IMG/VR virus record: IMGVR_UViG_3300017770_000219
Location: 1 to 21,125 of that record
Length of the DNA: 21,125 nucleotides
DNA from: a virus
Reading direction: 5' to 3' (one strand)
In this document: positions 3,020 through 19,732 of the stretch, one piece after another
Layout: every line of letters starts with the position of its first letter
Numbering within the stretch: position 1 is the stretch's first letter
Position numbers and translations under genes: made by a program
Notes under the pieces: model-generated
The model's database searches: none
What the model was told of the DNA's origin: nothing
What the model saw: only the letters and a program-made list of their open reading frames with translations

Positions 3020-4230
3020 GATGTGGTGTTAGTTATGCCACCCATTAACTGGACAGCGTGGTCTAGGGATTGCACGTGTTCGATGTTGGTGGAGTTCTTC
3101 TGTCGCTTACGCATCCACTTCTCATCTTGCGTGTCGGGCATGTACAAGTTGACGATGTAGCCAACCTTTCCTTCGACGAATCGAATAGCACGTCCCGTAC
3201 GCTGCACGTCTTGCCTTGGAGAACTACTGCCACTTGAGATAATGGCAAGCTCGACACCCGGAACGTCAAACCCCTCGTCCAATGCACGCGCCGTGTTAAT
3301 GATGCGTGCCGTGCCTGAGTTGAATTGTTCGAGTGCTTCGCGCCTCTTCTTGGCTGGCATCTTACTAGAATACGCAACCGACTCGAGTGGTAGTTCAGCA
3401 GTTATCGCGTTAGCAAAATCCACTGATTCGCTAAATGTGATGGTTCTTAGCTCCCTCATCTCGGTGCACAAGCGGTACACGCTGTCAAGTTTCGACTGGT
3501 TCATGTAGAGCATCTTCTTCCGTTTCGCCATATTGCGATTGAAATTAATTGCCCACACTCTAACCTTGTCTCCATCAGCAGCAGTCCTACGTGCAAAGTT
3601 CTCGCACGCTTGTTCCGATTTGAGGCAGTTCATAGCCTGTCCGAAATCATTACCGAACTTAGAGAAATAGTAGTTAAAGTTGCGTGACAACTCTTTGTAC
3701 TCATCCCTATCTTGGTCGTTCAAGTAAACCGGTACGTTCAATACCCTGAACGGGCTGACGTACCCTTCACGCAGCGCTTCTTCCAGCTTGACAGTCGCCA
3801 CGATAGGCGCCTTCTGCCGAAGAAGATAATCATTCCCGTCTTGTCGGGAGATAGTCGCTGTCAGACCCAATATCTTCTTGTACTGTACTCGTTCAAAGAT
3901 GTAACCAAAAGAGCTGGTTGCATAGTTATGAATCTCGTCCAGTATCAATAGATTGACATTGTGTTCGTACTTGATTGCGGAGTTAATTACCAACACCGTA
4001 ACATGCTGCAAGTCAGACACTTGGTCTTCCCACTGCTTCTTAAGGTGTATGGTAGGTACAATCACGAGGGTCTTAGCCCCTGATTGCTGTTCGTTAAGTG
4101 CCTTGATTGCGAGGACGGCAGTGTATGTCTTGCCGAAACCCGTGCATGCCTCCAGAGTACCCCTGCAGCCGTTACTAGCCCAGCTGCGGAGGATACTCTT
4201 TTGGCGTGCAAGACGTTTCTCGTCAATCAT
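3016..4230 (-). CDS. SF2 DEAD/DEAH-type helicase
   Basis: A 404-residue superfamily 2 helicase. Domain 1 carries Walker A ACTGFGKT (28-35), motif Ia (LVIVPTIHLKKQW), motif II DEIH (98-101) and motif III TAT (124-126). Domain 2 carries the Gly-rich (ALDEGFDVPGVE) and motif VI (QRTGRAIR, 343-350) signatures. The arrangement resembles phage UvsW/SSL2-like helicases, which remodel recombination intermediates and branched DNA at replication forks. The stop overlaps the following gene by ATGA, placing it in the replication operon. The assignment to SF2 is secure; a specific role in fork reversal, R-loop removal or repair is inference. Confidence 0.9.
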   Translation of the reverse strand: MIDEKRLARQKSILRSWASNGCRGTLEACTGFGKTYTAVLAIKALNEQQSGAKTLVIVPTIHLKKQWEDQVSDLQHVTVLVINSAIKYEHNVNLLILDEIHNYATSSFGYIFERVQYKKILGLTATISRQDGNDYLLRQKAPIVATVKLEEALREGYVSPFRVLNVPVYLNDQDRDEYKELSRNFNYYFSKFGNDFGQAMNCLKSEQACENFARRTAADGDKVRVWAINFNRNMAKRKKMLYMNQSKLDSVYRLCTEMRELRTITFSESVDFANAITAELPLESVAYSSKMPAKKRREALEQFNSGTARIINTARALDEGFDVPGVELAIISSGSSSPRQDVQRTGRAIRFVEGKVGYIVNLYMPDTQDEKWMRKRQKNSTNIEHVQSLDHAVQLMGGITNTTS

Positions 4231-4768: not shown

Positions 4769-5117
4769 CGAGTCCTTTATCAGTAAGGACGTAGTCGTCC
4801 TCGGTTAGGCCTTCCATAACGAAGAACTCGCCCCAAGACACAGAGCCAGAGGCAACTGCTTTTGGTTCGTTGCCTGCAATGTCGATGATGCTAACCACCC
4901 AAAAACGGTGCTCACCATTACCATCATCATTGTCAGGGCCTTCAGTTATGTGCGGTGTCAAGGTAATGTGAAAGTCATTCACATTCCATCCGGCTTCCAA
5001 GTCTATCTTGTGGAGGTTTTTGGGGATGTCAAGCGAGTAGCTCTTGTCTCCACGATTCCACGTCAACATAAATGGGCGGGTGTCGTTAAGTCCTTGCATT
5101 TCTACAGCAACTGTCAT
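4761..5117 (-). CDS. Hypothetical protein, beta-rich (118 aa)
   Basis: A 118-residue acidic protein with no recognised domain. The start overlaps the dUTPase stop by ATGA (5117-5114). The composition (YSLDIPKN, FHITLTPHITEG, HRFWVVSIIDI) suggests a small beta sandwich or barrel. A Gly/Asp-rich loop (EGPDNDDGNGEH) near the middle may be flexible. Its place between dUTPase and tiny genes in the replication operon suggests an early accessory protein, but its role is unknown. Confidence 0.75.
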   Translation of the reverse strand: MTVAVEMQGLNDTRPFMLTWNRGDKSYSLDIPKNLHKIDLEAGWNVNDFHITLTPHITEGPDNDDGNGEHRFWVVSIIDIAGNEPKAVASGSVSWGEFFVMEGLTEDDYVLTDKGLDA

Positions 5118-8816: not shown

Positions 8817-9069
8817 AAATAGCAACAGCTGGAATACCGACACCGAGCATCATAGCCAGTACGAGTGCAAACGGGACAATCTCGAATCCGGGTACGTAAA
8901 GGGCAAGCCCTACCGATAAGGTAGCGCCAACGACCATCTTTATCATGAAGCCGCCTGCTACATAAGACATGCCCTGCTTGGGGTCTACCTGCATACCGAG
9001 GTAGCAAATAATAAAAGACACACCGCAGAGCAGGGCGCCTACGATTAGTCCTGTTAATGCTGAAATCAT
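8794..9069 (-). CDS. Small membrane protein with three predicted spans (91 aa)
   Basis: A 91-residue hydrophobic protein coupled to the sigma factor gene by ATGA (9069-9066). Three hydrophobic segments are visible at about residues 4-25 (LTGLIVGALLCGVSFIICYL), 38-60 (AGGFMIKMVVGATLSVGLAL) and 63-87 (IVPFALVLAMMLGVGIPAVAI), with a basic C-terminus (YVTRKTG). The topology has some resemblance to AtpI-like or holin-like small membrane proteins, but no diagnostic motif is present. Function unknown. Confidence 0.72.
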   Translation of the reverse strand: MISALTGLIVGALLCGVSFIICYLGMQVDPKQGMSYVAGGFMIKMVVGATLSVGLALYVPGFEIVPFALVLAMMLGVGIPAVAIYVTRKTG

Positions 9070-9530
9070 TGTGTTAAGAGTTGTTTGAGGTCTTGTCTGG
9101 CACGCATAATGGTTACCTTGACGTTCGAAAGACTTGTCCCTACGGACTCGGCGATAGTTTGCATCTCCATATTCTTAAAGTAATGCAGGACCATCAGCTC
9201 CCGTTTTCTCGGAGAGAGTGAATCAATAGCTTTGTGCAAAGCACTGTAGTCTCTATCTTCTTCAGGCTGCTCATCGTGTACGTGTATAAACTCTGTAGAG
9301 TCGTAGTCAGCGTCACGTCTGCGCAACTTAGAAAGGTCTATTGCCTTGTTACGGGCAATACGGTTAGCCCAAGCTTCAATAGGTCTGCCGTCCCAATCAT
9401 CCATTTTACTTATGATGGTGCGCAGTGTATGCGCTACGGCTTCTTGTTGGTCTTGAGTGTGTTTGGTTATGGACTTGGCTACCCGTGTAGCAACGGGTAC
9501 AACCAACTCCTCGATTTGGTGGTGAGTCAT
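9066..9530 (-). CDS. ECF-like RNA polymerase sigma factor
   Basis: A 154-residue sigma-70 family protein with only regions 2 and 4. Region 2 includes WANRIARNKAIDLSKLRRRDAD (about residues 54-75), which forms the RNA polymerase clamp contact and -10 recognition helix. Region 4 is a helix-turn-helix around SLSPRKRELMVLHYFKNMEM and SVGTSLSNVKVTIMRARQDL. An acidic linker (HDEQPEEDRD) joins them. This is the ECF (group IV) arrangement. It would direct host RNA polymerase to phage promoters. It is the first gene of the leftward replication operon, preceded by the hairpin 9548-9569, so it could switch on late or early gene sets. No anti-sigma gene was recognised, although the next gene encodes a small membrane protein. 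Confidence 0.9.
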   Translation of the reverse strand: MTHHQIEELVVPVATRVAKSITKHTQDQQEAVAHTLRTIISKMDDWDGRPIEAWANRIARNKAIDLSKLRRRDADYDSTEFIHVHDEQPEEDRDYSALHKAIDSLSPRKRELMVLHYFKNMEMQTIAESVGTSLSNVKVTIMRARQDLKQLLTQ

Positions 9531-12587: not shown

Positions 12588-12641
12588 TGGTGCTAGTATT
12601 AGCGTGTGCCCGTCAGAGGTGGTGCACAATACCTATTAATA

Positions 12642-12689
12642 GAAGCGCTGCAGGAGTCGAACCTGCACGTAGACCGTCGCGCTTTCCAA
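12642..12689 (-). other. tRNA-like T-arm and acceptor fragment (degenerate tRNA, attP or tRNA mimic)
   Basis: On the minus strand a perfect T-arm is present: GCAGG, loop TTCGACT, CCTGC (12666-12650), followed by AGCGCTT. Upstream, AAGCGC (12684-12679) is complementary to GCGCTT, so the fragment can fold as an acceptor stem plus T-arm with only ~12 bases in place of the D and anticodon arms; those bases contain a possible ACG/CGT mini-stem. Alternatively, TTGGAAA at 12689-12683 could be an anticodon loop (GGA, Ser), making this the 3' half of a class II tRNA, as in attachment sites. No CCA is encoded. It begins directly after the stop codon of the lipoprotein gene. No complete tRNA can be drawn. 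Confidence 0.55.
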
Positions 12690-13524: not shown

Positions 13525-13564
13525 TGTGTTGTAAATAAAAAGTGTTTGTGATACTAGAGAGTTG

Positions 13565-13598
13565 CTAGCCCCCCACTCGTATCAAGGTGAGGGGCTAG
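13565..13598 (-). terminator. Strong 12-bp hairpin
   Basis: On the minus strand, CTAGCCCCTCAC pairs with GTGGGGGGCTAG over 12 bp with one G-U and a 10-base loop. It separates the 62-residue gene from the 140-residue gene. The tail CAACTCTCTAGT is only moderately T-rich. Confidence 0.75.
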
Positions 13599-14887: not shown

Positions 14888-14910
14888 TACTGATAGCAAA
14901 TAGAGAACCT

Positions 14911-14920
14911 TAGCTCCCTC
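14911..14920 (-). promoter_or_regulatory. GGGAGCT element, copy 1
   Basis: Minus-strand GAGGGAGCTA, lying within a possible hairpin GAACCT...AGGTTC and 77 bases upstream of the 14834 start. One of seven copies of the element in this region. Confidence 0.45.
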
Positions 14921-14927
14921 AATAGGT

Positions 14928-15293
14928 TCAGCAGGACGTCAAGTCCTTCTTGGGTAACTGGTAGTCCTCGCAGAGGAACGTTGTGCTAAACAACTCATCG
15001 GCAAGCTCGCGGTGTACGGACTCGATTATTAGCAACGCTTGTTTGTCTCGGTCCGACGGGGAGCGCGATAGCTCCGTGTAAAAAGTCGGCGCGCCGTCAT
15101 CGTAGAAGATGAATGCGACTCCACCGTTGGTCTCGAACCGAGATATGGACACGATTAGTGTCTCGCCTGCACAGAGGTCGTTGTAGGCTTCGTCGGCCAT
15201 GCGACTGAACGCACCCGCGTGAACATATTGCGCAAGGCTCTGCTCGTCAGAGCATTGCAACGTAAAGAAGGGGTGATGCGAGGGCATAAACAT
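14928..15293 (-). CDS. Hypothetical protein (121 aa)
   Basis: Start at ATG 15293 (MFMPSHHPFFTLQC), with 15287 as an alternative; codons further upstream run through two hairpins and look non-coding. The protein has a mixed alpha/beta composition, including SISRFETNGGVAFIFYDDGAPTFYTEL and a C-terminal SVHRELADELFSTTFLCEDY. No known domain recognised. It is preceded by a CGGTTG/CAACCG hairpin (15316-15330) and the UUCG hairpin 15344-15369, so it likely starts a separate message. Confidence 0.74.
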   Translation of the reverse strand: MFMPSHHPFFTLQCSDEQSLAQYVHAGAFSRMADEAYNDLCAGETLIVSISRFETNGGVAFIFYDDGAPTFYTELSRSPSDRDKQALLIIESVHRELADELFSTTFLCEDYQLPKKDLTSC

Positions 15294-15315
15294 GTTACCA
15301 ATATACAATAGAAAT

Positions 15316-15330
15316 CGGTTGGAACAACCG
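15316..15330 (-). other. Small perfect hairpin in leader
   Basis: CGGTTG, 3-base loop, CAACCG; it lies 23 bases upstream of the start at 15293. It could affect translation or transcription initiation of that gene. Confidence 0.4.
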
Positions 15331-15343
15331 AACCCCAAAGGGT

Positions 15344-15369
15344 AGTACCCCCGCCGAAGCGAGGGTACT
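15344..15369 (-). terminator. UUCG-capped 11-bp hairpin
   Basis: Minus-strand AGTACCCTCGC / GCGGGGGTACT, one G-U pair, TTCG loop. It lies 6 bases after the stop of the 15376-15714 gene. No U tract follows. Confidence 0.7.
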
Positions 15370-15375
15370 GGTAGG

Positions 15376-15714
15376 TTAGAAAGGAAGGGGTGCTTCCATG
15401 TTGCTGTGATACATGACTGCATCGTAGGAGTCACGGGCAGTATCAGCAGCATTTGCGTAGACTTGCTTCTCGTAGCTGTCGATGTATGGACGTTCGGCAG
15501 CTTGTGAGCACAACTCACTGACGGTGGCTACACGGTGGTGGTGAGGTACGTCACTGGGCGTGAACAAGTGCTTGGCAACCATACGGTTGACGAGCATGAT
15601 AGCAGAGCGAGCGTGTACTGCCTTGGATTCTGGCATGTTAGCTACGAGCTCGATGATGTTGGACAAGATAGCTTCTGCAGCTGTCTTGCCGTCGATGGTG
15701 TCACGGCGGCTCAT
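15376..15714 (-). CDS. Hypothetical protein (112 aa)
   Basis: A helical 112-residue protein (TAAEAILSNIIELVANMPE, HARSAIMLVNRMVAKHL) with a His cluster (PHHHRV) and an aromatic, Tyr-rich second half (ERPYIDSYEKQVYANAA). The start overlaps the stop of the 36-residue gene by ATGA. Followed by a strong UUCG hairpin. No family recognised. Confidence 0.75.
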   Translation of the reverse strand: MSRRDTIDGKTAAEAILSNIIELVANMPESKAVHARSAIMLVNRMVAKHLFTPSDVPHHHRVATVSELCSQAAERPYIDSYEKQVYANAADTARDSYDAVMYHSNMEAPLPF

Positions 15715-15821
15715 TTGGCAACAACGATTACGCCGTTGATGGCAGAGAACATGCGAGGACGGGGCTGCACCGTGGTGGTAGCAGTAGTGGTTGGCTTGTT
15801 GCCGGGAATGTTGAGATACAT
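15711..15821 (-). CDS. Tiny protein (36 aa)
   Basis: ATG at 15821 opens a 36-residue frame MYLNIPGNKPTTTATTTVQP then RPRMFSAINGVIVVAK, with its stop overlapping the next start (ATGA). Thr-rich first half and a short hydrophobic C-terminal segment. The overlap, rather than composition, is the main support. Function unknown. Confidence 0.55.
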   Translation of the reverse strand: MYLNIPGNKPTTTATTTVQPRPRMFSAINGVIVVAK

Positions 15822-15833
15822 GATGTTGTGGAA

Positions 15834-15905
15834 TTAACGTTGAAAGAAAAAAGAGTAGATGAACAGCAGAGTGCCGAACACGGGAAACAAAAGGAAAGGG
15901 TGCAT
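15834..15905 (-). CDS. Possible tiny hydrophobic protein (23 aa)
   Basis: ATG 15905 to TAA at 15834 encodes MHPFLLFPVFGTLLFIYSFF followed by FQR, essentially one membrane helix, ending 12 bases before the 15821 start. Composition matches the other tiny membrane proteins in the window, but at this length chance cannot be excluded. Confidence 0.35.
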   Translation of the reverse strand: MHPFLLFPVFGTLLFIYSFFFQR

Positions 15906-16276
15906 TTATGCTTTGTGAAAGAATGTGTAAGAGTAGAAAGCACGCAGGTGCGCTAGATGTCTTAGTAGGGTATTACCATACCTGACGTGCTTAGCAGTTT
16001 GTCATCTTGCTGGATTACGTCGTCGCCCATCACCGGACTATGTGTACGACCTTTCTATAACTAAGGGGAGTCGCGGTACTAAACCGGCTGTGGCCGCAGT
16101 TCCCAACGACTTCCCCTTCCTGCCACAGCAGGAGATGAGTAAGTCAGTGCTCCAAAGGCTGAGCCAAGGGATGAGGGAATGTCCCGACACTGAACTTACG
16201 AATGAGTGCACCCCACAGTGGGAGTGTCTGACTCCGGCTCCATTTGCCGGTTATTTTGGTAAGGGCCCGAACCCTG
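15906..16276. other. Structured stretch without a convincing gene (ncRNA candidate)
   Basis: A plus-strand frame of 89 codons (16042-16311) has poor protein character. A 22-codon minus frame (15962-16030, MGDDVIQQDDKLL) cannot be excluded. More notable is folding: 16063-16073 AAGGGGAGTCG pairs with 16107-16118 CGACTTCCCCTT (11 bp, one bulge), immediately followed by CCTGC/GCAGG (16119-16132), and later CCGGC/GCCGG (16234-16250). A short inverted repeat GGTAT/ATACC is near 15966-15980. This may be a non-coding RNA on the plus strand or a regulatory leader. Confidence 0.4.
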
Positions 16277-16302
16277 CACAGCCACCCCGAAGGGTGACTG
16301 TG
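16277..16302 (-). terminator. UUCG-capped 11-bp hairpin
   Basis: Minus-strand CACAGTCACCC / GGGTGGCTGTG with a TTCG loop and one G-U pair (C-A mismatch on plus). Located 20 bases after the stop of the 16322-16648 gene. Confidence 0.7.
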
Positions 16303-16321
16303 AGAGCGTGATTGCAGAGAA

Positions 16322-16648
16322 TCAAACGGTGGCCCAATAGACACCCTCCTTCTCGTCGTGTGCACGCACGTCGCGGAGTGTGACTTGGAGACCCTCGCCA
16401 TCCGTACCGAGCTGCTGGGACTCAATGTCCTTGGCATCGAAGCGGTTGGGGTTGGCAGGGTTGGGCGTCAGCAAAGCCGCAATGGTCTCGGAGAGCTCAT
16501 TGAGTGCGATGTTGACAAGTGCATTGGATTCAACGCCCGTGCCCAAGACAGATGTGCCGGTGGACATGGTAGCCGAAGTTGCGAGGTAAAACTTGCCGTT
16601 CTTTTCGGACTTAGTGGCGCCGAAGACCTTTGTGATTTTAGCGTTCAT
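16322..16648 (-). CDS. Hypothetical protein (108 aa)
   Basis: Start at ATG 16648 (MNAKITKVFGATKSEKNG); upstream in-frame codons cross the leader with the GGGGAGCT element and look non-coding. The protein has a beta-prone N-terminus, a Thr/Ser/Gly-rich middle (ATSATMSTGTSVLGTGVES), a helix (LNELSETIAALL) and an acidic C-terminal half (RDVRAHDEKEGVYWATV). Weak similarity to the 13102-13524 protein at the N-terminus. Flanked by a GGGGAGCT element upstream and a UUCG hairpin downstream, so it appears to be a single-gene unit. Function unknown. Confidence 0.78.
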   Translation of the reverse strand: MNAKITKVFGATKSEKNGKFYLATSATMSTGTSVLGTGVESNALVNIALNELSETIAALLTPNPANPNRFDAKDIESQQLGTDGEGLQVTLRDVRAHDEKEGVYWATV

Positions 16649-16714
16649 GCTATTGTGTATTGAGGGTAAAAGAGAAATGAGTGACTGTATGTCCACAAGT
16701 AAAATGAGACAATA

Positions 16715-16724
16715 AGCTCCCCTT
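16715..16724 (-). promoter_or_regulatory. GGGGAGCT element, copy 2
   Basis: Minus-strand AAGGGGAGCT, 67 bases upstream of the 16648 start. A short GGCGC/GCGCT inverted repeat lies just before it. Confidence 0.5.
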
Positions 16725-16774
16725 CTCGGCATACAAGTCAGCGCGTTAAGCGCCAACCTGTATACGGAGTGGGG

Positions 16775-17134
16775 TTAGTCGAGAATCTCGAACGTGATTT
16801 CGTCAGCGTACAGCTTGCCGTGAACCAAGTAGAGAACCTCGTACGTGTACCCGGCTATGTGGGTGAACAGGAGCGGGAACCGCTCATTGTCAATCATGAA
16901 CCCATCGGTACCGACGACTGTCGGGTATGTGCCGGTGGTGCTGAAGGTCCAATCGTGCACTGTAGCAATATCGTTGACAGGGTCAACAAATATTGTGGCG
17001 TCGAGGAAACCATTCTCAGTTTTGAGATGGCCACGGTACGTGGTTTGTGCGCATGATTGCAGAGCGCAGAAGCAAAGCACCCCCGCTACGATTGACGTAG
17101 CGAGGTGCCGGAAGAAGGAAGAAACGTTGTTCAT
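16775..17134 (-). CDS. Exported protein or lipoprotein (119 aa)
   Basis: N-terminus MNNVSSFFRHLATSIVAGVL then CFCALQSCAQ: a basic start, hydrophobic core, and either signal peptidase I cleavage SCA|Q or a lipobox LQSC. The mature ~85 residues are beta-rich (YRGHLKTENGFLDATIFVDP, YTYEVLYLVHGKLYADEITFE). The gene starts inside the stop of the 40-residue membrane protein (ATGA), so at least one tiny membrane protein and an exported protein are made together, an arrangement reminiscent of lysis gene sets. Function not recognised. Confidence 0.78.
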   Translation of the reverse strand: MNNVSSFFRHLATSIVAGVLCFCALQSCAQTTYRGHLKTENGFLDATIFVDPVNDIATVHDWTFSTTGTYPTVVGTDGFMIDNERFPLLFTHIAGYTYEVLYLVHGKLYADEITFEILD

Positions 17135-17253
17135 TTTGTGATGGATTGAATGAGAATTGCGCCAAGAGTGACGATGAGAAACATGCCAACGATGATGGCG
17201 AGAGAGCCGACGGCGTTACCGACGTCGAGCAGGAGAGCTTCTTGTTCGTTCAT
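17131..17253 (-). CDS. Tiny single-span membrane protein (40 aa)
   Basis: MNEQEALLLDVGNAVGSLAI followed by IVGMFLIVTLGAILIQSITK: an acidic N-terminus and a ~25-residue hydrophobic helix ending in Lys. ATGA overlap with the exported-protein gene, and only 26 bases from the preceding small gene. Holin-like size and topology would be unusual at 40 residues but not impossible. Function unknown. Confidence 0.68.
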   Translation of the reverse strand: MNEQEALLLDVGNAVGSLAIIVGMFLIVTLGAILIQSITK

Positions 17254-17279
17254 TTGTTGATTTTGTTGAAGTGTTGTAC

Positions 17280-17381
17280 TTACCCGAGCAATGAGCGCAG
17301 GTAAGCAACGAGTGATGGGATGAGCATGAGGGCAGTGAGGACTGAACCCGCGATGATTTGTTGTTGGATGACGGTGTACAT
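17280..17381 (-). CDS. Tiny single-span membrane protein (33 aa)
   Basis: MYTVIQQQIIAGSVLTALML followed by IPSLVAYLRSLLG: a single hydrophobic helix with a basic residue near the end. It lies 15 bases beyond the hairpin 17397-17422, so it is the first gene of the 17381-16775 cluster. Support is compositional and positional; no homolog recognised. Confidence 0.55.
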   Translation of the reverse strand: MYTVIQQQIIAGSVLTALMLIPSLVAYLRSLLG

Positions 17382-17396
17382 GAGAGTAAGGGGTTT

Positions 17397-17422
17397 ACCC
17401 CGCAGCGATTATGCTGCAGGGT
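17397..17422 (-). terminator. 10-bp hairpin overlapping a stop codon
   Basis: Minus-strand ACCCTGCAGC / GCTGCGGGGT with one G-U and a 6-base loop. The last codons and the stop of the 17409-17708 gene are part of the stem and loop. Confidence 0.65.
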
Positions 17423-17708
17423 TTTGGATGAGAGAATCTTGCACTGTGTGCAGGAGTGGCAGGCATTGGCGAAGTGTGATGCCGATTGAGTGGAGGCGCT
17501 TAATGTCCTCGGGGCAGAAGTCGTCTGCAGTTGCTTCCGAGAGGTAGTCTGCTACGGTGTCTGCGATGTCCACGTAGTCTACTGAGCTGAACGCGCTTGC
17601 AGACTTGAGCTGTGATGCGAGGTAGAACGCGACCTGCTCGTTCTGCATTGCTGCGATGTGCTGTGTGACGATTGCGAGCTTGCGGAGGAGTGTGCTGAGT
17701 GTGTGCAT
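17409..17708 (-). CDS. Hypothetical helical protein (99 aa)
   Basis: Start at ATG 17708 (MHTLSTLLRKLAIVTQ); an upstream extension runs through the GGGGAGCT element and the UUCG hairpin and is unlikely. The protein is helical throughout (NEQVAFYLASQLKSASAF, DIADTVADYLSEATADDF). A copy of the GGGGAGCT element lies 39 bases upstream and a hairpin at its end, making a clean single-gene unit. No family recognised. Confidence 0.75.
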   Translation of the reverse strand: MHTLSTLLRKLAIVTQHIAAMQNEQVAFYLASQLKSASAFSSVDYVDIADTVADYLSEATADDFCPEDIKRLHSIGITLRQCLPLLHTVQDSLIQNPAA

Positions 17709-17746
17709 TGTGTTTGCTTTTAGGCATTGCGTTAGCCGAGATACAT

Positions 17747-17757
17747 AGCTCCCCTTA
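17747..17757 (-). promoter_or_regulatory. GGGGAGCT element, copy 3
   Basis: Minus-strand TAAGGGGAGCT, 39 bases upstream of the 17708 start and 12 bases after the 17769-17790 hairpin. TATATTCT precedes it, which could act as a Bacteroidota-like -10 (TAnnTTTG). Confidence 0.5.
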
Positions 17758-17768
17758 GAGAATATAGT

Positions 17769-17790
17769 GGCAGGGGCCGAAGCCCCCGCC
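17769..17790 (-). terminator. UUCG-capped 9-bp hairpin
   Basis: Minus-strand GGCGGGGGC / GCCCCTGCC with TTCG loop and one G-U pair. It follows the stop of the 17798-18034 gene by 8 bases. Confidence 0.72.
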
Positions 17791-17797
17791 CTATACA

Positions 17798-18034
17798 TTA
17801 GTCTGTCATAAGGGTACAGCTGATGCCATAACCTCTTACATAACCATAAACAAACATGGCATCGGTAAGTGTGTGCAGTCTGTGCTGGACATCATCGTCG
17901 TAGACGACATTATACATGGTGCTGCCCTCATAGGGACACACTTCTGATGCGATGAGAACGTGCTGAGGAGCCCGGTTGCGGATAGCAGCAGTGACTTGTT
18001 CAGCACGGATGCCGAGAGAAATATTGGTAATCAT
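17798..18034 (-). CDS. Hypothetical protein (78 aa)
   Basis: Start at ATG 18034 (MITNISLGIRAEQVTAAIRN). The protein is alpha/beta with APQHVLIASEVCPYEGS and ends MFVYGYVRGYGISCTLMTD, with three aromatic-Gly repeats near the C-terminus. A GGGAGCT copy at 18055 sits 21 bases upstream, and hairpins flank the unit. No family recognised. Confidence 0.72.
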   Translation of the reverse strand: MITNISLGIRAEQVTAAIRNRAPQHVLIASEVCPYEGSTMYNVVYDDDVQHRLHTLTDAMFVYGYVRGYGISCTLMTD

Positions 18035-18054
18035 GGAATGTGGTTTGTGACAGG

Positions 18055-18061
18055 AGCTCCC
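18055..18061 (-). promoter_or_regulatory. GGGAGCT element, copy 4
   Basis: Minus-strand CGGGAGCTCC, 21 bases upstream of the 18034 start; here the element also pairs with CTCCC just upstream. Confidence 0.4.
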
Positions 18062-18102
18062 GAGGGAGACACCGTCGAAAAAAACGAAAAGAGAGAGTGT
18101 AT

Positions 18103-18126
18103 ATAGCCCCACTCCGTATGGAGCAG
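18103..18126 (-). terminator. 10-bp hairpin with pyrimidine-rich tail
   Basis: Minus-strand GCCCTGCTCC / GGAGTGGGGC, loop ATAC, two G-U pairs. Followed after some bases by CTCTCTCTTTTCGTTTTTTTC, the most T-rich tail of the set. Confidence 0.75.
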
Positions 18127-18147
18127 GGCATATACGTCAGAAATTGT

Positions 18148-18351
18148 TTAGTCGAACATAGCACGGGGCATGTCAGACTTGAGAGAATCGAGTTCACAGT
18201 CGGCAATGTGTGCATCGCAGATGTATGAGCCCGTGTCATCGAAGACAGTGACAGCAGCGGAAGTGCCGTCGAAAGAGTGGTCGATGATGACGATGAGGCC
18301 TGCACCCTTTGTAGAGGTGGCCTCGTTGGTGACGAGTGTGTTGAAATCCAT
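18148..18351 (-). CDS. Hypothetical protein (67 aa)
   Basis: Start at ATG 18351 (MDFNTLVTNEATST), 22 bases after a GGGGGGAGCT element. The middle is beta-rich with IVIIDHSFDGTSAAVTVFDD, an Asp/Thr-rich edge and two Cys (YICDAHIADCELD) that could bind metal or form a disulfide. The unit ends with the hairpin at 18103-18126. No family recognised. Confidence 0.7.
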   Translation of the reverse strand: MDFNTLVTNEATSTKGAGLIVIIDHSFDGTSAAVTVFDDTGSYICDAHIADCELDSLKSDMPRAMFD

Positions 18352-18372
18352 AGACAGCAAGAAGAGAAGCGA

Positions 18373-18402
18373 AGCTCCCCCCGCAGGGCATATGCCCACC
18401 CG
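18373..18402 (-). promoter_or_regulatory. GGGGAGCT element, copy 5, with adjacent palindrome
   Basis: Minus-strand GGGGGGAGCT (18382-18373), directly preceded by the perfect palindrome GGGCATATGCCC (18386-18397). Located between the stop of the 29-residue gene and the 18351 start. Confidence 0.45.
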
Positions 18403-18492
18403 TCAGAGACAGATGAGCACAGCGATGAGTAAAGGCAGGCCACAGGCAAAGAGCACTGGCCAAACGGATGCGTTGTTATCTTCGTGATACAT
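18403..18492 (-). CDS. Tiny single-span membrane protein (29 aa)
   Basis: MYHEDNNASVWPVLFACGLP followed by LLIAVLICL: an acidic N-terminus and one hydrophobic helix to the end of the protein. It begins 16 bases after the hairpin 18508-18533. Two Cys residues lie in the span. Expression is not proven, but the same composition recurs in six other tiny genes of this window. Confidence 0.55.
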   Translation of the reverse strand: MYHEDNNASVWPVLFACGLPLLIAVLICL

Positions 18493-18507
18493 GAGAGAAA
18501 GGGTTGT

Positions 18508-18533
18508 GGGGCCACAGCGTATGCCATGACCCC
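18508..18533 (-). terminator. 11-bp G-U-rich hairpin
   Basis: Minus-strand GGGGTCATGGC / GCTGTGGCCCC, loop ATAC, three G-U pairs. It lies 8 bases after the stop of the 18541-18771 gene; the tail is ACAACCCTTTCTCTC. Confidence 0.68.
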
Positions 18534-18540
18534 GATGAAA

Positions 18541-18771
18541 TTAGATGGACTTGTAGCCGAGCTTGATTAGGTCGGTGATGACCATGTAGGCACAAGCGTA
18601 GTGTGGACCGATAGTCAGTTCACAAGTGGACTTGTTGTCATTGTTCTGACAGTACACGATGTACTGACCCATGTTTTTGTCGTAAGACACTTCGAACTTG
18701 GTAGAGACGGATGCGTAGTGTACGTGTGAGACGACAGTATTTGCAGTTTTGCGGAAGGTAGAGAGGGACAT
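18541..18771 (-). CDS. Hypothetical protein (76 aa)
   Basis: Start at ATG 18771 (MSLSTFRKTANTVVSHVHY). A small alpha/beta protein with two Cys (YIVYCQNNDNKSTCELTIG) that could pair, and a C-terminal helix with YMVITDLIKLGYKS. Upstream are the inverted repeat 18796-18810 and, further away, GGGGGAGCT copy 6. Unknown function. Confidence 0.7.
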   Translation of the reverse strand: MSLSTFRKTANTVVSHVHYASVSTKFEVSYDKNMGQYIVYCQNNDNKSTCELTIGPHYACAYMVITDLIKLGYKSI

Positions 18772-18795
18772 TTGTATAGGTGTTTGAGAGATGAC

Positions 18796-18810
18796 GTGAC
18801 AACTTGTCAC
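18796..18810. promoter_or_regulatory. TGACA inverted repeat (operator candidate)
   Basis: GTGACA, 3 bases, TGTCAC, located 25 bases upstream of the 18771 start; same half-sites as the repeats at 14869-14887 and 19718-19732. Confidence 0.45.
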
Positions 18811-18913
18811 ATAGTGGTGGAATGTATGTCAGTATGTCATACAGGGGAAAGGGGTAGAATACAGTGCAGGTGACTTGGACCGCACGTAGCTATCCTCATC
18901 ACCCCCCTCATAC

Positions 18914-18943
18914 GTGAATACGGATGTTTAAGCTCCCCCTTAG
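18914..18943 (-). repeat. 30-bp direct repeat, right partner of 19193-19222, with GGGGAGCT copy 6
   Basis: Matches 19193-19222 at about 27 of 30 positions. Plus-strand order is GTGAAT, one variable base, CGGATGTTT, one variable base, AGCTCCCC, one variable base, TTAG. It lies about 145 bases upstream of the 18771 start; the 24-codon frame that follows is not convincing. Confidence 0.7.
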
Positions 18944-18953
18944 TGGTAACAGC

Positions 18954-18972
18954 AGGACCCATACAGGGCCCT
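18954..18972 (-). terminator. 7-bp hairpin after the 65-codon gene
   Basis: Minus-strand AGGGCCC / GGGTCCT, 5-base loop, one G-U pair. It lies 17 bases beyond the TAA at 18990. Confidence 0.55.
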
Positions 18973-18989
18973 ACCTTACCTTACTTACC

Positions 18990-19187
18990 TTACATACGGA
19001 CACATACACGTGTACCCTCGGGGTACTTGTCCATATACGTGTCCATCTCATCCCTTGCTACAAGGGACATGTCAATATCAGTCACGCCTGTAGTATTACA
19101 GGTGTACACACTGGTAACTGCCAACATGCTGGCAGGTACATCCATGCATTCCTCCACGATTACGTGGTCAAGAGTATAGCTATCCAT
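18990..19187 (-). CDS. Small acidic protein (65 aa) encoded in hairpin-rich DNA
   Basis: The frame from ATG 19187 reads MDSYTLDHVIVEECMDVPAS, continues MLAVTSVYTCNTTGVTDIDM, and ends TRVCVRM. It is bracketed like the neighbouring units: element GGGGAGCT copy 7 lies 23 bases upstream and a G-U hairpin lies downstream. The unusual feature is that the coding DNA contains six perfect inverted repeats (19013-19193), and the start codon lies in the loop of the last one (GATAG/CTATC around TATG). Several Cys residues are present. If not a gene, the stretch would be a structured non-coding or origin sequence. Confidence 0.58.
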   Translation of the reverse strand: MDSYTLDHVIVEECMDVPASMLAVTSVYTCNTTGVTDIDMSLVARDEMDTYMDKYPEGTRVCVRM

Positions 19188-19192
19188 AGATA

Positions 19193-19222
19193 GTGAATCC
19201 GGATGTTTTAGCTCCCCTTTAG
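19193..19222 (-). repeat. 30-bp direct repeat, left partner, with GGGGAGCT copy 7
   Basis: Minus-strand CTAAAGGGGAGCT then AAAACATCCGGATTCAC; about 27 of 30 bases match 18914-18943. It lies just upstream of the 65-codon gene. Confidence 0.7.
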
Positions 19223-19391
19223 AATCAGGTGGGGGGTACTTGCTTTGACTTTTTGTTGGGGGGCCTTGGCCTAATGTGGTCCCCACTTACGCTTCCCCAG
19301 ACAATTTCCCCATGTCCTAGTAAAGGGGGGGGTTCATATATGGGAGCTGAGGGGTAGGGGGCCTTATATAGGAGGTAGCCTATGCAGTGCG

Positions 19392-19491
19392 CGAATCCCG
19401 TTAGGATTCTTGGCCACTCGTATTGGACGGGGTTCCACCCAGAGGCACTAGACGGCAGACATGCCTAATGTACAGTATGGGCAGGGATTCG
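19392..19491. other. Alternative-pairing RNA/DNA structure (switch candidate)
   Basis: CGAATCCC at 19392-19399 is complementary to GGGATTCG at 19484-19491, closing a ~100-base domain. The same 5' strand also pairs with GGATTC at 19404-19409, forming a small local hairpin; the two pairings exclude one another. Inside are GGG/CCC (19430-19440) and GGCA/TGCC (19454-19465) hairpins. This resembles an attenuator or riboswitch-like arrangement, but no known class was recognised. Confidence 0.4.
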
Positions 19492-19506
19492 TGTTACCTC
19501 CTCGCT

Positions 19507-19609
19507 GATGGCTGCGCCATCGCTTTTAGCTCTCTACTGCCGTAGCAGTTAGTTGGTCAGGCTGCGCCTGTCGCTCTTAGCTGCTTGGCAGCGTCGCTAA
19601 CACTTTAGC
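19507..19609. repeat. Array of five small hairpins with CGCTnTTAGCT repeats
   Basis: Hairpins: 19507-19521 (GATGGC/GCCATC), 19536-19549 (ACTGC/GCAGT), 19558-19570 (CAGGC/GCCTG), 19580-19592 (GCTGC/GCAGC) and 19596-19609 (GCTAA/TTAGC). The first and third share GGCTGCGCC and are followed by CGCTTTTAGCT and CGCTCTTAGCT. The arrangement could be a replication origin (iterons plus structures), a set of terminators, or a packaging signal. Confidence 0.55.
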
Positions 19610-19717
19610 AAAGCTACATGAAATTCTGACATACGCAAGTATTCGACACACTATCTCACGGGAGTGGACACATTGTCAGGTGTGTCAGGTATATGACTGA
19701 CAGTATGGCAGTATTGC

Positions 19718-19732
19718 ATGACAGCGTGTCAT
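19718..19732. promoter_or_regulatory. TGACA inverted repeat overlapping a possible start
   Basis: ATGACA, 3 bases, TGTCAT. The alternative ATG at 19731 lies in its right half, so a bound protein could control the first rightward gene. Confidence 0.45.

Follow-up and report, generated by a model that had tools for sequence, protein, structure and literature searches.

Six gaps in the early region of a 21,125-nucleotide viral DNA (called the window here; it is the whole virus contig record) carry an eight-base core on the minus strand, GGGGAGCT (AGGGAGCT in one copy). From sequence comparison we propose, with a probability of just under one half (about 0.48), that this element is the clade-specific early-promoter core of a crAss-like phage and is read by the virion polymerase. 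In the human gut, few phages are as abundant as the crAss-like ones, which inject a giant RNA polymerase. In the literature examined, no start signal for this polymerase was described. A compact and conserved candidate, together with a matched but different motif in a relative, would offer a directly testable promoter and a means of recognising early genes in members of the group that have not been cultured.

Copies of the element in the window

The element copies were compared with two related contigs: G010 (58,325 b), a relative at ~83% identity that aligns with parts of the early block of the window (68-87%), and L030, which extends over just the first two element sites. The following copies were considered:

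19193..19217, minus strand: element A, core GGGGAGCT at 19217-19210 plus downstream block, before the first leftward gene (ATG 19187)
18914..18938, minus strand: element B, core 18938-18931, before gene 18771; orthologous in G010, with a similar copy in L030
18357..18380, minus strand: element E, core 18380-18373, before gene 18351
17731..17754, minus strand: element C, core 17754-17747, before gene 17714
16699..16722, minus strand: element D, core 16722-16715, before gene 16648
14896..14919, minus strand: element G, core AGGGAGCT at 14919-14912 (GGGGAGCT in G010), before gene 14834
13557..13580, minus strand: possible variant GGGGGGCTAGCAACTCTC of the element, which overlaps one arm of a hairpin ahead of gene 13524; nearly identical in G010
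18055..18061, minus strand: copy F, rejected

A preliminary description had listed seven plus-strand occurrences of AGCTCCC, always in gaps and 20-80 bases before a minus-strand start, with one copy farther away. All seven exist, the first at 14912 rather than 14911. Copy F (18055) sits within CTCCCTCGGGAGCTCC, has no counterpart in G010 and looks like a chance match, and therefore six copies are supported as elements, not seven. For these six the described placement holds: all are intergenic, five lie 21-77 nt from the ATG and one lies at 159 nt (A 22, B 159, E 21, C 32, D 66 and G 77 nt).

Plus-strand AGCTCCC occurs 10 times in the window against 2.0 expected, a count reached by 0 of 100 shuffles; the matches that had been missed are at 3449 and 9196, inside minus-strand genes (as GGGAGCT), and at 19342, a conserved plus-strand copy. 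The strict 8-mer GGGGAGCT is found five times, always on the minus strand and in noncoding sequence, and nowhere else in the window. With the divergent gap left out, the early gaps hold four copies versus a shuffle mean of 0.037 (max 2). Equal frequencies in coding sequence and gaps had been named as a result that would speak against the element. The check did not refute it: in G010, seven of the nine GGGGAGCT occurrences are in early gaps and two in late genes. When tested, the restriction of the element to early-gene starts held. Several hairpin-bounded units (genes 18033, 15292 and 13028) have no core. The possible variant GGGGGGCTAGCAACTCTC, merged with a hairpin arm (window 13557-13598), precedes the early gene that is best conserved (97% identity at the protein level).

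Conservation of the motif and the upstream hairpins

Alignment of 13 copies from the window and G010 gave the full motif GGGGAGCT-N5-WYYC-N3-TTRC, in which a second block follows the core at near-fixed spacing, with ~12 nt between the blocks. The search of relatives that had been recommended recovered all six window elements in register in G010, plus a seventh at 4912, and two (both A and B) in L030. The seven G010 elements are all intergenic, on the minus strand and in the early block. Element C is present in the window and in G010 although both of its flanks are unrelated between the two phages, and AGGGGAGCTAAAACATCC around A is invariant in the window, G010 and L030, while the L030 gene after A has diverged. 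Unguided de novo expectation-maximization (EM) searches recovered the element both from the window gaps (LL 92.8 versus 63-69 for shuffled sequence) and from the G010 gaps (LL 92.4 versus about 68). Across all viral contigs, a pattern scan with the long motif returned only G010 and three unrelated contigs sharing one common, coding-looking sequence. Rfam gave no match at the gathering score and a single weak istR match under the cutoff.

A hairpin directly before the element had been reported for four or more copies, and strong hairpins are indeed present at B, E, C and D:

18945..18980, minus strand: hairpin before B, 15 pairs, none of them broken in G010 (compensatory changes 1, one-sided changes 3)
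18388..18423, minus strand: hairpin before E, strong fold
17762..17796, minus strand: hairpin before C, UUCG loop; in G010 an unrelated hairpin at the same place
16729..16765, minus strand: hairpin before D, 16 pairs, none of them broken in G010 (compensatory changes 1, one-sided changes 2)

Their energies in the window are -24.0 (B), -22.6 (E), -25.6 (C) and -28.2 kcal/mol (D), among the strongest 0.2-2.3% of 50-nt stretches; the hairpins before B, C, D, E and H span -21 to -30 kcal/mol, within the strongest 2.4% of the region. The hairpin at G is weak (-8.7 kcal/mol), and neither the window nor G010 nor L030 shows a strong hairpin at A, which precedes the first leftward gene. This is expected for A if the hairpin belongs to the end of the unit before it and the element does not include it. 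The C hairpins of the window and G010 are of unrelated sequence and the same design. The hairpins are strong and two of them (B and D) show compensatory changes, but none is followed by a U-run; they are candidate terminators or 3'-end structures. In the proposed layout, most early units close with such a hairpin, after which come the putative promoter core GGGGAGCT-N5-WYYC-N3-TTRC, a leader that mostly measures 20-80 nt, and then the following gene.

The arrangement recalls phage N4, in which an injected polymerase reads the early genes and a hairpin stands beside conserved bases (PMC4496689). The N4 hairpin, however, is short, centred at -11 and required, whereas the stems in the window are long and variably spaced and A has none. 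A hairpin at a fixed distance in every promoter, as in N4, was thus not found, A and G being without a strong one.

The phage, its relatives and the virion RNA polymerase gene

The minus-strand replication genes of the window encode Sak4-like and DnaB-like proteins, a helicase, a dUTPase, a family A DNA polymerase, a sigma factor and a metallophosphoesterase. Small genes with no known family form a block ahead of them that begins at the divergent gap 19190-19730. The window represents an early/middle piece of a crAss-like phage genome. Terminase, portal and major capsid genes, which are absent from the window itself, were found on G010, where the sequence continues into them (PHROGs matches 6681/6547/11589). 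The G010 TerL is 39% identical to that of FpV4 (Flavobacterium phage type), with further matches to crAss-like phages, crAssphage and Bacteroides, Flavobacterium and Cellulophaga phages; for the more distant relative G013, TerL identity is 75%. No DNA similarity of the window to the phage collection was found. A further contig, G002, overlaps G010 at 99.8% and adds a gene of 4981 aa, which holds GSDFDVDKLF (DFDxD), the DxDxD signature of giant Crassvirales virion RNA polymerases. This loop is kept in G013, G012, G015 and FpV4. Searched against 50,697 phage records, the giant gene had, among the matches listed, only crAss-like phages, including phi14:2 and annotated RNA polymerase catalytic subunits. 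From the terminase matches and the giant DxDxD gene with its crAss-like relatives it follows that the window comes from a marine phage of the crAss-like group, with a virion RNA polymerase encoded by its relatives. As an observation apart, a minus-strand gene at 7947-8843 matches spore photoproduct lyase / radical SAM.

In Crassvirales early genes are read by the virion polymerase (PMC10136315, PMC8375218), as has been described for phi14:2 (PMC10136315). The giant polymerase, injected with the DNA, would be the most likely reader of the element, and the first phage genes would be switched on by the phage's own enzyme at these sites. The early block of G013, whose giant polymerase has ~one third identity, lacks the GGGGAGCT series and has instead an A-rich bipartite element at sites comparable to those of the window, TWAAAAGAWGRCTTT-N-GGGGNTAGC. 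It is present in 7-10 copies, and several of these precede an ATG by 25-70 nt:

L110 9254-13920, minus strand: repeated early element of G013, TWAAAAGAWGRCTTT...GGGGNTAGC, different from the window element

More tentatively, GGGGAGCT-N5-WYYC-N3-TTRC could be the first promoter to be recognised for a virion RNA polymerase of crAss-like phages, changing by clade (TWAAAAGAWGRCTTT-GGGGNTAGC in G013) along with the polymerase; if so, comparison of the two could map the region of the polymerase that sets its specificity. Phage phi14:2 resembles the window phage in belonging to Crassvirales, in its giant virion polymerase gene with DxDxD and in an early block divergent from the structural genes, but a motif search upstream of its early genes, based on crude gene calling, found no comparable repeated element; its virion polymerase is the one that has been tested. 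In a dozen other relatives a crude search with crude gene calling gave no clear repeated element. Thermus phage P23-45 offers a further parallel: its virion and non-virion polymerases are phage two-barrel enzymes that use promoter motifs of their own ahead of early units (PMC10770324). Those motifs differ from the window element, and the starts were mapped in that phage.

Candidate readers of the element and other roles

Two further features of the window bear on how the early block could be transcribed:

19609..19638, minus strand: host-type (Bacteroidetes) promoter TTG-N19-TAGCTTTG, kept in the window, G010 and L030, pointing into the early block
9066..9530, minus strand: gene of a phage sigma-70-type factor (region 2/4), a candidate alternative reader

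The preliminary description had offered a promoter part, a transcription start region or a translation control element. A promoter part or transcription-start element is best supported: the intergenic position, the strict orientation, the restriction to the early block, the independence from flanking sequence, the placement of most copies behind terminator-like hairpins, the bipartite spacing and the substitute element in G013 favour a promoter. The virion polymerase is its preferred reader because the element is confined to the early block, does not fit the host -7 and -33 boxes, and is replaced by a different element in G013, where the polymerase has diverged as well. Against this count the upstream host-type promoter, the hairpins without U-runs, the units without a core and the lack of a comparable element in phi14:2. 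Host RNA polymerase, redirected by the phage sigma factor or by an activator binding GGGGAGCT, is an improbable reader, even though a protein with sigma-70 regions 2/4 is encoded in the window and the paired blocks, with their near-fixed spacing, look like a bipartite promoter of bacteria. The ~12 nt between the blocks are short for a -35/-10 pair, and the sigma gene belongs to the middle genes and so comes after those that it would have to start. It was found only in the window and G003, with no homolog recognised in G013, G012, G015 or FpV4, yet G013 has analogous elements. The sigma-A -7 consensus of Flavobacteria is TAnnTTTG (PMC9723704); a perfect TTG/TAnnTTTG copy, the only intergenic one, lies at 19638-19609, ~390 nt upstream of the first element, whereas the GGGGAGCT element does not match this -7 box with its -33 TTG, and no TAnnTTTG was found in the element-bearing gaps. 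Both the missing host consensus at the elements and the lack of a recognisable sigma homolog in G013 make host polymerase and sigma factor less favoured readers. A sigma-54 promoter was also considered and dropped after a spacing check.

The host-type promoter could drive a long transcript through the block, with the elements then lying inside transcripts, and for this reason we keep an RNA-level role, though as an unlikely one: a site at which a polycistronic early mRNA, made from the host-type promoter at 19616, would be processed or stabilised, cleavage near GGAG leaving the upstream messages with a protective 3' hairpin. The conservation of that promoter in three phages agrees with such a role, as do the hairpins that closely precede the core (at B and C by 6-7 nt; two with compensatory changes), and the targets of T4 RegB in early intergenic regions have GGAG at their core (PMC3014915). 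All copies read GGAGCT, however, with C after GGAG, and so depart from the strong-site consensus GG*AGRAYARAA (PMC3014915); the eight-base identity plus TTRC exceeds the length that RegB needs, no regB-like gene was found among the proteins scanned, and the G013 counterpart is A-rich and bipartite. A DNA-level site outside expression (replication, packaging or repressor binding) would account for short repeated sites and for the palindromic AGCT, but is very unlikely given the strict orientation relative to genes and the placement at gene-unit starts. Translation control, by a Shine-Dalgarno-like or standby site, is weakened to the point of being hardly credible: GGGGAG is purine-rich and stands ahead of start codons, but its distance from the ATG ranges over 21-159 nt, and Bacteroidetes lack Shine-Dalgarno sequences (PMC6847099).

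Several noncoding stretches of the window are recorded here in their own right. At 12640-12685 on the minus strand, where ARAGORN called no tRNA, there is a tRNA T-arm and 3' acceptor-like sequence, GTGCAGGTTCGACTCCTGCAGCGCTTC, with a matching short 5' strand; it corresponds to a gap in G010. The noncoding stretch 19230-19620 is very highly conserved with G010; a structured RNA at 19240-19620 was considered and rejected, folding being only slightly better than in shuffles (z only -1.2 and -1.8). The stretch 15960-16210 is likewise highly conserved with G010 and has no clear minus-strand ORF, so that a noncoding RNA or a plus-strand ORF is possible; in G010 the extra element (4912) lies upstream.
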